In this document: positions 22,841-37,756 of the stretch, piece after piece
How positions within the stretch are numbered: the stretch's first letter is position 1
Layout: every line of letters begins with the position of its first letter
NCBI GenBank assembly: GCA_005882895.1
Contig: VBBD01000031.1
Span: 3,110 to 43,188 of the forward strand
Reading direction: 5' to 3'
DNA length: 40,079 nt
DNA from: Candidatus Bathyarchaeota archaeon
Lineage (GTDB): Archaea > Thermoproteota > Bathyarchaeia > 40CM-2-53-6
Made by a program: the position numbers and the translations under genes
The notes under the pieces: generated by a model
The model's input: only the letters and a program-made list of their open reading frames with translations
The model's database searches: none
Told to the model about the DNA's origin: nothing

Positions 22841-22849
22841 CTTTAAATG
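22841..22849 (+). promoter_or_regulatory. TATA box of the tRNA-Gly gene
   Basis: ctttaaatg centred about 30 bases before the first tRNA base at 22876, the expected spacing for an archaeal promoter. Confidence 0.6.
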
Positions 22850-22915
22850 ACCGGTAGCTTTGGAGTTCGTTTTGTGCGGCCGTGGTCTAGCCTGGTCTAT
22901 GATATCAGCCTGCCA

Positions 22916-22933
22916 ATCCTAGGCTTAGCAGAA
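22916..22933 (+). other. Intron 1 of tRNA-Gly (18 bases, position 37/38)
   Basis: A canonical bulge-helix-bulge forms: the exon stem TCAGC/GCTGA, a central 4-bp helix CTGC (22910-22913) with GCAG (22928-22931), and 3-base bulges CAA and AAC. Cutting after the second base of each bulge removes exactly these 18 bases. The intron-side helix is weak. Confidence 0.85.
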
Positions 22934-22948
22934 CGCTGACGACCCGGG

Positions 22949-22974
22949 AAACCGCCTTGACAGCGGTTCGGGAG
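22949..22974 (+). other. Intron 2 of tRNA-Gly (26 bases, T arm, position 53/54)
   Basis: A central 4-bp helix CCCG (22943-22946) with CGGG (22969-22972) is bordered by 3-base bulges GGA and AGT, and by an intron hairpin AACCGC/GCGGTT with a 7-base loop. Cutting after the second base of each bulge restores a perfect T arm. The outer helix is short (about 2 bp), so this is a relaxed BHB, as is usual for non-canonical sites. Confidence 0.8.
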
Positions 22975-23085
22975 TTCAAATCCCGGCGGCCGCACCATCA
23001 AGAAAACAGCTGACGCGAGTCCAAACCAAAGATGAACGACATAGGCTCAATCCTATTACCCGCGACTGGAACCATGTAAAGTGGC

Positions 23086-24120
23086 ATGTCCAATCCTCTG
23101 GTTCTGCATCATGAGAAGATGGGTGCCCAGCTGGAACAAAGCCGGATTCCACTATCCTACACTAGTCCAGCTAAAGAATACTGGGCCGTTCGAGACCATT
23201 CAGGTCTAGCTGATCTTTCACACCTCGGCCTACTACGAATAACAGGTAAGGACAGGCTATCCTTCCTCAACGGACTACTCACCAACGAAGTCTTGAAGCT
23301 GAACGAAGGGACAGGCGTCCGCTCGGCACTTCTCAACACAAAAGCCAGAGTCCTAGCTGACCTCTACCTCTATGCAAGAGAAGGTGATCTTCTCATCGAC
23401 ACCGGTGATGCTCCTGCAGCCGGGATTAGAGATACCTTCGACCGCTTCATCATTACCGAGGACGTACAAGTCAAAGACATTACCTCTGAATTTGTTCACC
23501 TAACAATGCAAGGGCCGCAAGCGACTGAGAACGCGAAAGAGTTGTTCGGCACCGCATTCGCAGACATAAAGCCATTGCAGCACAAAATGATAGGCCCTAC
23601 CATGATCGTCGTCCGCGACCGGACCGGTCAATCTGGATACGATATGATCATTCCAAATGACGAGGCTGAGGCAGTTTGGCAAGGCTTCCTGCTCAAAGGA
23701 GTAACCCCAGTAGGGCAAGATGCGCTAGAAATTCTCAGGCTCGAAGCAGGATACCCAAAATATGGGGTTGACGTAGACGAGAATACAATAATCCTAGAAG
23801 CTGGATACAAAGACGCCATCAGTTTCACCAAAGGATGCTATCTCGGTCAGGAGGTTGTAGCCCGAGTCACTCACATTGGCCGGGTAAACAAGAACCTCGT
23901 CCAGTTTCAAACCGAATCTGATCACGTACCGGGCCCAAAGTCGAAGCTTCAAGCAAGCGGCAAAGAAGCAGGATACGTCACCAGCGCCGCATACTCCCCC
24001 GGACTGAAAGCCGTCGTAGGTCTGGGTTATGCCCAGCGAGACTTTGCCAAGGAAGGAACCAAGCTAGTCGTAGAATCAGACAGGGGCCCACTGCCGATAC
24101 TAATAACCAAATTGCTCTAG
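23086..24120 (+). CDS. ygfZ: YgfZ/IBA57-like folate-binding protein (GcvT family)
   Basis: 344 residues from ATG. The GcvT-type tetrahydrofolate-binding fold is recognisable from DHSGLADLSHLGLLRITGKD through LTMQGPQATENAKELFG. The YgfZ signature KGCYLGQEVVAR at residues 249-260, with Cys251, separates it from true aminomethyltransferases. YgfZ-type proteins help assemble or repair certain Fe-S enzymes using folate. No glycine cleavage genes are nearby. Its stop overlaps the stop of the convergent gene by four bases. Confidence 0.88.
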   Translation: MSNPLVLHHEKMGAQLEQSRIPLSYTSPAKEYWAVRDHSGLADLSHLGLLRITGKDRLSFLNGLLTNEVLKLNEGTGVRSALLNTKARVLADLYLYAREGDLLIDTGDAPAAGIRDTFDRFIITEDVQVKDITSEFVHLTMQGPQATENAKELFGTAFADIKPLQHKMIGPTMIVVRDRTGQSGYDMIIPNDEAEAVWQGFLLKGVTPVGQDALEILRLEAGYPKYGVDVDENTIILEAGYKDAISFTKGCYLGQEVVARVTHIGRVNKNLVQFQTESDHVPGPKSKLQASGKEAGYVTSAAYSPGLKAVVGLGYAQRDFAKEGTKLVVESDRGPLPILITKLL

Positions 24121-25283: not shown

Positions 25284-25991
25284 CTACATAAGGCTAGTTT
25301 TGGGAAAAGTTCCTCTCGACGCAGTCTCCTTCTCGTAGTCGTAGATTGCTCTCGCGACAACTGTCCACGCCTCTAAACCCTGATCATGAATTCGGTAGCA
25401 TTCCTTCACTTTGGAGAGGGCGTCTTTGGAAAAGTGTCCTCTTGGAAACCCTCCTACCAGCAACACAGGATTGTGTAATTCTGCCAATCTCGAAGCTACT
25501 TCGTTCATGCGTTTGGGGAGCCCCTTTGTTGTTAGCGCTATGACCACTCCTGATATTTCGCTAAGTAGATCTCCAAGGGACCCGGGCTTAATCGACATAA
25601 GCGGACGCCCCGTAGGAGGAACAGCCTTTTCTTGGTGGAGTTGTTCGAGTAGTGATGTGAATCGGTCAGTGTTCCTCGGAAGCCTTGCCTTCGAATCGAC
25701 ATTAATGATATTGTTATCCCTCGTATGCACGTAGCATCTCAATCCACCTGTCAGGTTAAGCGGCGAACCTAGTGCGAGCAGCAAGGAGAGATGGGCGATG
25801 TCTGGACGCCCCCTCCCAATCCCACGGGGTCCCAGCCGGAGGATGGCCGAGTGATGATAGGTCTGGTCTAATACTAGGGAGTGGGGGTCTTTTCTTTTCC
25901 TTTGCGCCCAATTTAAGATCGCGGGGTGGTCGACCAGTTCATTAGGCACAAGCTCTATCGAGGACTCTGCGAGAATTAGTGACAGAACCAA
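25284..25991 (-). CDS. nep1: 16S rRNA pseudouridine N1-methyltransferase Nep1 (Emg1)
   Basis: 235 residues if started at TTG 25991, directly before the conserved LILAESSIELVPNELVDHP; the frame upstream is the reverse of rnp4 and is rejected. Further family features: DQTYHHSAILRL, GRGRPDIAHLSLLLALGSPL and RNTDRFTSLLEQL, which form the SPOUT knot and RNA-binding parts. Nep1 N1-methylates the hypermodified pseudouridine of 16S rRNA and assists small-subunit assembly. Transcribed divergently from rnp4 with only about 33 bases between starts, so the two share a promoter region. Confidence 0.92.
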   Translation of the reverse strand: MVLSLILAESSIELVPNELVDHPAILNWAQRKRKDPHSLVLDQTYHHSAILRLGPRGIGRGRPDIAHLSLLLALGSPLNLTGGLRCYVHTRDNNIINVDSKARLPRNTDRFTSLLEQLHQEKAVPPTGRPLMSIKPGSLGDLLSEISGVVIALTTKGLPKRMNEVASRLAELHNPVLLVGGFPRGHFSKDALSKVKECYRIHDQGLEAWTVVARAIYDYEKETASRGTFPKTSLM

Positions 25992-26024
25992 CGCGGACCA
26001 GTCATTCGTCGCTAGAGCTAGGTT

Positions 26025-26375
26025 ATGAGTTTCATGGGAAATAGGCCCACGAGGCGAAACTACGGAAAGATGCGGTCGGCCGTAGCAACGGTCGCACGTG
26101 AACGGATAGATATTCTTCTCCGTCAGGCGGAAGAAGTCCTTGCGAAGGATGTCAAGTTGTCTAGGAGGTATGTTGGACTCGCCAGGAAGATTTCGAAGCG
26201 GACCAAGGTCAGGATTCCACGAGAGAAAAAACATTATCTTTGCAAGAACTGCGGCCAGCCCCTAGTTCTGGGAAAAAACGCGCGAATCAGGCTTCGCCCT
26301 ATCAATTCAAGAGTCATCATTTCCTGTCTCGCCTGCGGTGCAATTCGAAGGTATCCGTGTAGAAAACTAGGTTAA
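26025..26375 (+). CDS. rnp4: RNase P protein subunit Rnp4 (Rpp21/Rpr2)
   Basis: 116 residues from ATG (ATG 26034 also possible). Two N-terminal helices (ERIDILLRQAEEVLAKD and SRRYVGLARKISKRTKV) precede a zinc ribbon with CKNCGQP and CLACGAIRRYPC. Rnp4 with Rnp1 forms the RNA-binding dimer that sharpens substrate cleavage by RNase P. Its neighbours (S19e and the ribosomal series) are the usual archaeal context. Divergent from nep1. Confidence 0.92.
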   Translation: MSFMGNRPTRRNYGKMRSAVATVARERIDILLRQAEEVLAKDVKLSRRYVGLARKISKRTKVRIPREKKHYLCKNCGQPLVLGKNARIRLRPINSRVIISCLACGAIRRYPCRKLG

Positions 26376-34963: not shown

Positions 34964-37756
34964 ATGCCAGAAATAAACCCGGAAGAATTCGCCCTCCCCT
35001 ACTTCAGAGAAATAGGCTTCATCCGAAGAAAATGTCCATCATGCGGAAGTAACTACTGGGGGGCTCCCGGACAGAATACCTGCGGCGAGGTTCCATGTGC
35101 ACCATACTCATTCATCGGAACTCCCCCCACAAAACGACGCTACACCCTAGCGGAGATGAGGATTCAGTTCATGGACTATTTCGCCGAGCGAGGACACACT
35201 AGGATAAAGCCCTACCCGATTGTAGCGCGTTGGCGTAACGACGTCTACCTTGTAGGGGCATCGATCTACGATTTCCAACCCTACGCGACAGAAGGGACAA
35301 TGCCTCCGCCTGCAAACCCGCTAGTCATCAGCCAGCCCTGCATCCGTTTCACGGACATCGAACAGGTTGGCGCCGCTGGCCGACACATGTCTATCTTCGA
35401 GATGGGAGGAGCACACGCATTCAATTATCCGGACAAGGTAATCTACTGGAAAGACGATACCGTCCGTTACCACCACAAACTCTTGTCCGACGTGATGGGG
35501 GTCCCCTCCGAGTCAATCACTTACAAAGAACACTTCTGGTCAGGCGGAGGAAACGCGGGCCCGGACCTCGAAGGGATAGTAGCAGGACTAGAAATATCGA
35601 CACTGGTCTTCATGCAGTACAAAGTCCAAGGAGAAGAACTCATAGCGCTACCAATCAGAACAGTGGACACCGGCTATGGGATGGAACGATGGGCCTGGCT
35701 GTCCCAGGGCTCACCAAGTGGATTCCACGCAGTATATGGGCCCCTGCTCGCGCAGGTTATGGAGCTGGCGAAGGTCGACCTCGACGAGAACACGTTATCA
35801 TCGCTTACGAGGTGGGCGGGAATCTACGGGGCCTCCAGTCGAGCCTCCAGGGAGGCATATATCGACGCGACAGCGCAGGAGACCGGCCGCGACAAAGACG
35901 CGTTCCGCTCCATCGTCCAGACCCTAGAAGCCGCATTTGCAATCACCGACCATACGAAATCGATCTCCTTCCTGCTAGCCGAAGGCGTCGTCCCGTCCAA
36001 CGTAGGCGAAGGCTACCTAACCCGCCTCATCATCCGCCGAGCCGCGAGGCTAGCACGACAGATAGGAATCCTTGAGGAGATTCCCGGCATAATCGAGGGA
36101 CAGGTCAAACTATGGGGTGGAGAATTCCATCTCCTCCGAGACATGAGAGGAGAGATACTAGACGGCCTGCAGATTGAAGTTGAGAAGTACGAGGAGACGA
36201 TAAGCAAGGGGTCGGAAGCGGTTCTCAGACTTTCAAAGGAACTCTCGAGTCAAGGCGTTCGAAAAATCCCCACCGATCAGCTCGTTCTGCTATACGATTC
36301 CCAAGGCCTGGCTCCAGAGATCGTGAAGGAGAGCGCGGAGAAGGTCGGAGTCGAGGTCGACGTTCCCGAGAACTTCTTGACGTTAGTCGCGGAAAGACAC
36401 TCAAAGCCAACCACCAGTCTTGAGGGGTCCTCCTCCGAGCCCGAATGGGAAGCGAAGCTAAAGGATCTTCCCGCAACCCGAGCGTTGTACTACGACGATG
36501 CCTATCAGACAAGCTTCCAAGCGAAGATAGTGGCGCGAGTCGCGGAAAACGCTGTCGTTCTGGACCAGACATGTTTCTATCCTGAAGGAGGTGGCCAGCC
36601 CGCCGACCACGGCGAGCTTCGGGTTGGCGATAAGAAGCTGAAGGTCACCAACGTCCAGAAGGTCGGAAACACTATCGTTCACTTTCTAGACCAGCCCATC
36701 GATCAAGATATCGATCTGGTTGAGGGGGAGATTGACTGGCAACGACGCCAGAACCTGATGCGTCACCATACCGGTACGCATGCCCTGATCGGGGCCGCGC
36801 GTAGAGTGCTAGGCGAGCACGTGTGGCAAGCTGGCGCACAGAAGGAAGTGGAGTCCAGCAGGCTGGACATCACACACTACCGGGAGATTAGTCTGAAGGA
36901 GAAGGAACGGATCGAAAAGCTAGTCAACCAAGTCATTCTGCGAGATCTACCCGTGCAGGTTACATGGATGGCCCGTGAGAAGGCGGAGGCAAAGTACGGT
37001 TATAGGCTCTATCAGGGCGGAGCGGTCCCAGGCTCCAAGATCCGAGTAGTGCGAATCCAAGGGTGGGATGCTGAGGCCTGCGGAGGAACACATTGCAAGA
37101 GAACCGGAGAACTAGGAGTCTTCAAAATCGAGAAAGCTAGCAAATTACAAGACGGCGTCGAGAGGATTATATTCTCAGCAGGCGAGCCCGCGCTGAAGCG
37201 GATCAATCAGCAGAGCGAAGCGCTTGCAAAAGCGAGCGAACTGTTGAAGACAACGCCAGACAAGCTTCCAGAGTCTATCAAGGCGATACTTGCTGAGAGA
37301 GATTCTCTAGAGAAAGAACTCGAAAAAGTTCACGCAAAGACTATGGAGGCCCATGTCAAGCAGCTCGGAAAGAAAGCGGTCATTGTCGGAACAGTCAGAC
37401 TGATACTAGCGAAGACGGGGAAGAGAAGAGGTATTGATCCCGTTGAGGTTGCCAATCGGCTCAAGGAATCTGACCCCAAAATAATCGCGGTAATATTCGA
37501 AGTATCGGAGCGCGTTCAGGTCGTGGCCGCGGCTGGCAACGAGGCGGTGAAAGCGGGCATCAACTCTGGCCACATCGTGTCGGAAGCCTCGAAAGTTCTA
37601 GGCGGTGGAGGAGGAGGCAGACCTTTCTTCGCGACAGGCGGCGGATCTTCAAAGGACAGAGTGGACGAGGCCTTGAGGATCGCAGAACAGATCATTACAG
37701 AACAGCTCAGAATAGCAGTCCCAGCGGAGGGAATCAGTAACGCCGGCCAAGCTTGA
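34964..37756 (+). CDS. alaS: Alanyl-tRNA synthetase (archaeal type)
   Basis: 930 residues from ATG. An N-terminal zinc module (CPSCGSNYWGAPGQNTCGE) precedes the class II catalytic core (motif 2 region FTDIEQVGAAGRHMSIFEMG; SGGGNAGPDLEGIVAGLEIS). The editing domain has HHTGTH at 601-606 and CGGTHC from residue 706, the zinc ligands that clear Ser- and Gly-tRNA-Ala. The C-terminal DHHA1 part has GGGGGGRPFFATGGG. Length is normal for archaea. Its stop lies 10 bases before the assumed leuS start. Confidence 0.97.
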   Translation: MPEINPEEFALPYFREIGFIRRKCPSCGSNYWGAPGQNTCGEVPCAPYSFIGTPPTKRRYTLAEMRIQFMDYFAERGHTRIKPYPIVARWRNDVYLVGASIYDFQPYATEGTMPPPANPLVISQPCIRFTDIEQVGAAGRHMSIFEMGGAHAFNYPDKVIYWKDDTVRYHHKLLSDVMGVPSESITYKEHFWSGGGNAGPDLEGIVAGLEISTLVFMQYKVQGEELIALPIRTVDTGYGMERWAWLSQGSPSGFHAVYGPLLAQVMELAKVDLDENTLSSLTRWAGIYGASSRASREAYIDATAQETGRDKDAFRSIVQTLEAAFAITDHTKSISFLLAEGVVPSNVGEGYLTRLIIRRAARLARQIGILEEIPGIIEGQVKLWGGEFHLLRDMRGEILDGLQIEVEKYEETISKGSEAVLRLSKELSSQGVRKIPTDQLVLLYDSQGLAPEIVKESAEKVGVEVDVPENFLTLVAERHSKPTTSLEGSSSEPEWEAKLKDLPATRALYYDDAYQTSFQAKIVARVAENAVVLDQTCFYPEGGGQPADHGELRVGDKKLKVTNVQKVGNTIVHFLDQPIDQDIDLVEGEIDWQRRQNLMRHHTGTHALIGAARRVLGEHVWQAGAQKEVESSRLDITHYREISLKEKERIEKLVNQVILRDLPVQVTWMAREKAEAKYGYRLYQGGAVPGSKIRVVRIQGWDAEACGGTHCKRTGELGVFKIEKASKLQDGVERIIFSAGEPALKRINQQSEALAKASELLKTTPDKLPESIKAILAERDSLEKELEKVHAKTMEAHVKQLGKKAVIVGTVRLILAKTGKRRGIDPVEVANRLKESDPKIIAVIFEVSERVQVVAAAGNEAVKAGINSGHIVSEASKVLGGGGGGRPFFATGGGSSKDRVDEALRIAEQIITEQLRIAVPAEGISNAGQA

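Follow-up and report, generated by a model that had tools for sequence, protein, structure and literature searches.

A soil Bathyarchaeia-type tRNA-Gly(GCC) gene interrupted by two introns, including one in the T arm

Introduction

Sugahara in 2008 and Fujishima in 2010 reportedly described non-canonical tRNA introns in Thermoproteales. In the available parts of the published record, position 53/54 is listed among the non-canonical positions of archaeal tRNA introns, and intron transposition has already been proposed for Thermoproteales (PMC4090602). Relaxed bulge-helix-bulge (BHB) motifs of the kinds discussed here have also been published (PMC4090602, PMC6379350). According to the accessible portions of further reports, 217 archaeal genomes yielded 673 non-canonical introns (PMC8450103), T-arm introns are mentioned for Caldiarchaeum (PMC3293823), and 92–95% of the tRNA genes of three Asgard genomes bear introns (PMC11291895). 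In the openly licensed literature, judged by titles and the beginnings of abstracts, no paper on tRNA introns in Bathyarchaeota or Bathyarchaeia was found.

The stretch of DNA analysed here, 40,079 nucleotides in length and referred to as the window, contains a tRNA-Gly(GCC) gene for which an initial annotation had proposed two introns, including a non-canonical one in the T arm. This is still the best reading, and on its sequence the gene appears to be well supported as a member of an already known kind. It resembles the non-canonical introns in the available parts of PMC4090602 in its 53/54 position, in having several introns per gene, in the BHB motif, and in the shortness of the introns. 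It differs from them in that it belongs to a soil Bathyarchaeia-type lineage and in that two glycine isoacceptors have the intron throughout the fetched members of the family. The Atabeyarchaeia and Freyarchaeia are alike in that most tRNA genes bear introns, often non-canonical and in over half of the cases several; they differ in being an Asgard lineage, and the available text on them does not discuss a 53/54 intron in tRNA-Gly (PMC11291895). With the window's gene, a soil Bathyarchaeia-type family joins the archaea that have introns in the T arm of tRNAs, and the points of note are the family-wide presence of the intron and the repeated use of one tRNA-Gly site. The reading that we favor with high confidence is that of a working tRNA-Gly(GCC) gene with two BHB introns, the transcript of which would be spliced by an (alpha-beta)2 endonuclease and a ligase, and the 53/54 intron of which is shared by every fetched GCC and TCC gene of the family and probably arose near the base of the family.

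Anatomy and Detection of the Gene

The window comes from a soil metagenome-assembled genome that is of the Bathyarchaeia type by the labels of related records (1.97 Mb, 92 contigs, 86.6% complete). The features of the gene and of its surroundings are as follows.

22841 to 22848, forward strand: CTTTAAAT, probable archaeal TATA box, its function judged from upstream conservation
22876 to 22997, forward strand: tRNA-Gly(GCC) gene, a cloverleaf after excision, with CCA encoded at 22995 to 22997; Rfam RF00005, 30.5 bits
22876 to 22915, forward strand: exon 1, tRNA positions 1–37, anticodon GCC
22916 to 22933, forward strand: intron 1 (18 nt, site 37/38); its BHB has a strong outer helix (the anticodon stem) and a weak inner one
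22934 to 22948, forward strand: exon 2, positions 38–53
22949 to 22974, forward strand: intron 2 (26 nt, site 53/54), the T-arm intron, with a 2-bp outer helix
22943 to 22946 with 22969 to 22972, forward strand: central 4-bp helix of intron 2, from the excision search
22950 to 22955 with 22963 to 22968, forward strand: inner 6-bp hairpin of intron 2, from the excision search
22975 to 22997, forward strand: exon 3, positions 54–76
23086 to 24120, forward strand: GcvT/YgfZ-like protein, just 3' of the tRNA gene
25284 to 26234, reverse strand: Nep1-type ribosome biogenesis protein
34964 to 37756, forward strand: archaeal alanyl-tRNA synthetase

The structure was established by an exhaustive search, in which all one- and two-intron excisions flanked by a BHB were made and the remainder was scored as a cloverleaf. 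The top-scoring excision (22.7) removes an 18-nt intron from 37/38 and a 26-nt intron from 53/54, and the coordinates, intron lengths, splice points, and both BHB motifs of the initial annotation are recovered exactly. When the interior of the gene was dinucleotide-shuffled 400 times, with the first eight bases and everything from the T loop onward held fixed, a single shuffle gave any model at all (16.9) and none attained 22.7. Intron 1 is an exact 37/38 insert with the 4-bp helix CTGC/GCAG and the 3-base bulges CAA and AAC. Intron 2 separates base 53 of the T stem from base 54 of the T loop; its central helix is CCCG/CGGG, its 3-base bulges are GGA and AGT, and its removal restores the T arm. 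The flanking helices of the two introns are opposite in character, strong outside and weak inside in the first, weak outside and strong inside in the second. Once both introns are taken out, pairing is perfect in the acceptor stem (7/7), the anticodon stem (5/5), and the T stem (5/5), as had been claimed. The description of the cloverleaf as flawless was a slight overstatement, as the D stem consists of G-U, U-A, and C-G pairs plus one U.U mismatch.

The Rfam model RF00005 matches the unspliced sequence just above its gathering score of 29, and ARAGORN reports no tRNA in the window. It likewise finds no gene in the unspliced sequence or after removal of intron 1 alone. With intron 2 removed, it reports a tRNA-Gly containing an 18-nt intron at the site of intron 1, and with both removed, a plain tRNA-Gly(gcc). 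Since the program misses the gene unless the T-arm intron is taken out, tRNA counts of this kind for these genomes can be too low.

The blank ARAGORN result, together with the presence of two insertions within one short gene, might suggest a dead or decaying copy. The probability of this is negligible, given what speaks against it. No further Gly(GCC) gene turned up: the three pattern-found tRNA-Gly genes of this 86.6% complete genome comprise one each of GCC, TCC, and CCC, and the fact that this is the only GCC gene found argues against a dead copy. The same two-intron layout is repeated in all 12 fetched Gly(GCC) genes of the family, and the TATA-like box is conserved as well, with CTTTAAAT lying no more than 50 bases upstream in 12/12 Gly(GCC) genes and upstream of 0/12 Gly(TCC) genes in the fetched family set. 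Compensatory changes in the intron, described below, also stand against decay. Of the named records compared, the nearest (L055, labeled Candidatus Bathyarchaeota archaeon BA_25) is 93.6% identical at the DNA level by BLAST, over a 2.1-kb stretch that spans the gene, and its introns are identical.

Folding and Covariation of the T-Arm Intron

Intron 2 had been said to form its own hairpin, and the comparison of relatives bears this out. In an alignment of 20 distinct Bathyarchaeia-type 53/54 introns, both sides of the inner 6-bp helix change at 6/6 pairs, and 99.2% of the cells are paired. The covariation of the whole structure is 0.403 against 0.209 in shuffled alignments, a value that 0/500 shuffles reach; further pair types come to 10, no more than the shuffles give (9.7). 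The central helix CCCG/CGGG is invariant throughout the aligned set, so covariation gives no support for it.

The predicted energies are less favorable to a simple splicing picture. The minimum-energy fold of the precursor is predicted at −51.3 kcal/mol and differs from the two-BHB fold. Among enforced folds, the two-BHB structure reaches −40.2 kcal/mol, a class-II-like structure −43.9, and a structure in which the T stem closes around the intron −42.3. In these models, the two-BHB fold would be slightly less stable than both enforced alternatives, which counts against that picture.

The class-II-like value speaks for a rival reading, in which the tRNA retains the 26-base insert as a long variable arm. 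If it is retained, a T-like 5-bp stem (CGGGA/TCCCG) with a 7-base loop is possible in 24/25 intron-bearing Bathyarchaeia-type genes, which makes this reading slightly more likely. However, glycine tRNAs are class I, and a class II tRNA would combine a long variable arm with a standard T arm, the loop of which starts with TTC. This combination is absent from the window's gene: its loop would read GTTCAAA, with the TTC displaced by one base and an additional G between the T stem and the acceptor, and in general the loop would be NTTCAAA rather than TTCAAAT, while excision restores the usual arm. The fifth stem pair is lost in one of the genes (L213). In addition, the insert varies from 22 to 30 nt while the flanking CCCGGG and TT remain constant. 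Finally, in same-order relatives (e.g., L222 and L224), exons of the same kind follow each other without the 53/54 intron. This is direct evidence that the sequence was inserted, and it speaks against a class II arm of the standard form. A retained variable arm is therefore considered very unlikely, and the insert is treated below as an intron.

Splicing Endonuclease and Ligase

A two-subunit splicing endonuclease had been predicted from the relaxed motifs, and the genome has two tRNA splicing endonuclease genes (PF01974). The first encodes a catalytic-type alpha subunit of 189 aa that is nearest to that of Aeropyrum pernix (E = 1.7e-43 to 3p1z_B). In the alignment, K42-P43-K44 falls on K44-P45-R46 of the Crenarchaea-specific loop, and the catalytic-region motif GPGIDHAPF is retained. 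The second subunit, 176 aa from a GTG start, is nearest to 5x89 and 1a79 and is without the GPGIDHAPF stretch. A gene for the RtcB ligase is present as well (E = 3.2e-170). In the available account of the characterized loop, the lysine of this motif lies near the catalytic center, and changing P45 or R46 strongly lowers cleavage (PMC12397907). The host enzyme resembles the Aeropyrum pernix (alpha-beta)2 endonuclease (3p1z; PMC12397907, as far as the accessible text goes) in its two separate subunits, the K-P-K in the loop, and the conserved GPGIDHAPF; it differs in being a candidate identified from its sequence. By its sequence features, it would fit the relaxed-specificity (alpha-beta)2 type with the specific loop.

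Together, these elements suggest the following course. The TATA-like box CTTTAAAT would drive transcription, and the transcript would bear the two BHB introns. To judge from its family, an (alpha-beta)2 endonuclease with a Crenarchaea-type loop would cut each bulge two bases in, and a ligase, probably RtcB, would join the exons. Only the removal of intron 2 would allow the T stem of 5 bp to close on a 7-base loop that has the TTC in the standard position. We infer splicing in the cell, and the enzymes responsible for it, from these features.

The endonuclease type was also considered as a cause of the introns and was rejected. Two EndA genes occur in 51/61 genomes of the class, including G008, in which the three fetched tRNA-Gly genes are intronless. 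The enzyme is thus permissive and not sufficient, and it does not explain the introns. A survey of the alpha subunits covered 31 loci, two of them without the alpha motif, 24 recognized by pattern, and five by eye; K-P-[KR] is present in 27 of the 29 recognized subunits and R-P-K in the other two.

Distribution within the Class

An intron-blind pattern for the 3' end of tRNA-Gly was applied to 121 genomes of the class, with matches in 84 and none in 37. At least 150 sites were obtained, of which 120 were fetched and parsed, including all 35 sites that were found in the 14 genomes of the window's family. The outcome within the family is clear-cut. The 53/54 intron is present in 12/12 fetched Gly(GCC) genes and in 12/12 fetched Gly(TCC) genes, and it occurs in 0/11 fetched Gly(CCC) genes. 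The latter have inserts at other places, as read by eye and, for the copy of the window's own genome, by parsing. A T-arm intron in all fetched genes of two isoacceptors and in none of the third makes this family a compact test case for the gain, copying, and loss of tRNA introns. The Gly(TCC) gene of the same genome (L019/L188, contig C34) also has two introns, one of 18 nt between the D and anticodon arms and a 26-nt one at 53/54.

Outside the family, one of the 85 fetched sites (L238, in G018) has a 53/54 intron; 81 show a normal T arm, and three have no reachable 5' T strand. Together with the joined exons of same-order relatives, this distribution suggests that the intron was probably gained near the base of the window's family.

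The three sites just mentioned (L235 and L236 in G079, L258 in G105) are tRNA-Gly 3' ends without a nearby 5' T strand. They may be copies of attachment sites that integrated elements left behind, or else the 3' halves of split genes.

Distribution and Origin across the Archaea

A public genome collection was scanned with a pattern for the exact arrangement, which gave at least 116 stretches. Eighty loci were read: 72 are full tRNA genes, one (L049) is cut by a contig end, and seven, all in bacterial records, are not tRNAs. As the pattern requires CGGG, its hits cannot prove the central helix. Among the matches listed, the 73 tRNA loci were assigned to groups by record label and exon likeness: 23 are of the Bathyarchaeota type (one, L057, is labeled "bacterium"), 30 of the Nitrososphaeria/Thaumarchaeota type, 10 Asgard, seven DPANN, and three Thermoproteales. 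Some of them are not glycine tRNAs and read as Asp or Glu by eye. The initial annotation had stated that such introns are known mostly from Thermoproteales and some other archaea. Introns at 53/54 do occur in Thermoproteales, but "mostly" is dated, as the site is also used in genomes labeled Nitrososphaeria, Bathyarchaeota, Asgard, and DPANN. The use of one site in several archaeal phyla was the less expected result.

In a further set, 66 distinct T-arm sites were parsed: 22 have the intron, 41 have none, and three are unclear. In genomes drawn from the class around G126 and from the phylum around G122, the intron is patchy as well. The central helix is weak in two of the 22, and L352 looks spurious. 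As 15 genomes were chosen for having the pattern, the share with introns is not a frequency.

In the draw around the Thorarchaeota-labeled G122, L367 and L369 have inserts in the T arm next to a T stem that contains an A.C mismatch; these inserts are apparently further 53/54-type introns. In the same phylum, L365 (G246) combines tRNA-Gly exons of a Bathyarchaeia-like kind with an intron in the T arm, a sign of contamination or transfer.

Two views of the origin of the intron can be weighed. An intron inherited from a deep archaeal ancestor and lost many times would account for why genomes labeled Bathyarchaeota, Nitrososphaeria, Asgard, and DPANN agree in its position and splice arrangement, and it would be compatible with the reading of the window's gene favored here. 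It is nevertheless improbable. The single intron among 85 Bathyarchaeia-class sites outside the family speaks against it, and so do the Gly genes of the CGACCGC type and one Gly(TCC) gene of the TGACCGC type in the class of G126, from which the intron is missing. Read by eye, the large groups have little in common in their hairpins apart from what the splicing motif requires, and the presence of non-glycine tRNAs with the same site, also read by eye, points in the same direction.

The other view would see tRNA-Gly 53/54 as a recurrent site of independent intron landing across phyla, followed by spread between isoacceptor genes through copying or conversion. We hold it tentatively, with a little more doubt than confidence. 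The Gly(TCC) gene of G072 may be a case caught in the act. Its intron resembles the common type of Gly(GCC) intron, which was likewise less expected. Compared with six distinct Gly(GCC) introns (eight genes), it scores 23–25 of 26, and compared with five distinct Gly(TCC) introns (eight genes), 19–21; the scores are 9.5–17 for the remaining GCC introns and 14–16 for the remaining TCC introns. This likeness suggests that the intron may have been copied or converted between isoacceptor genes.

Other tRNA Genes of the Genome

Other tRNA genes of the same genome also bear introns, although the genome-wide counts are rough, as nine of the 30 parsed loci (from 42 tRNA-like matches) gave no model and five scored low. 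The other 16 scored 20 or more; 13 of these have introns, and 10 have two or more. L029 (contig C81) is similar to tRNA-Ile(GAT) and has an apparent further intron in the T stem, with an ambiguous splice point. L026 and L027 (contigs C13 and C20) are near-identical and similar to tRNA-Arg(CCG), and each has a 36-nt intron in the D arm and an 18-nt intron in the anticodon loop. One of the two lies at a contig end, and neither has CCA after the gene.
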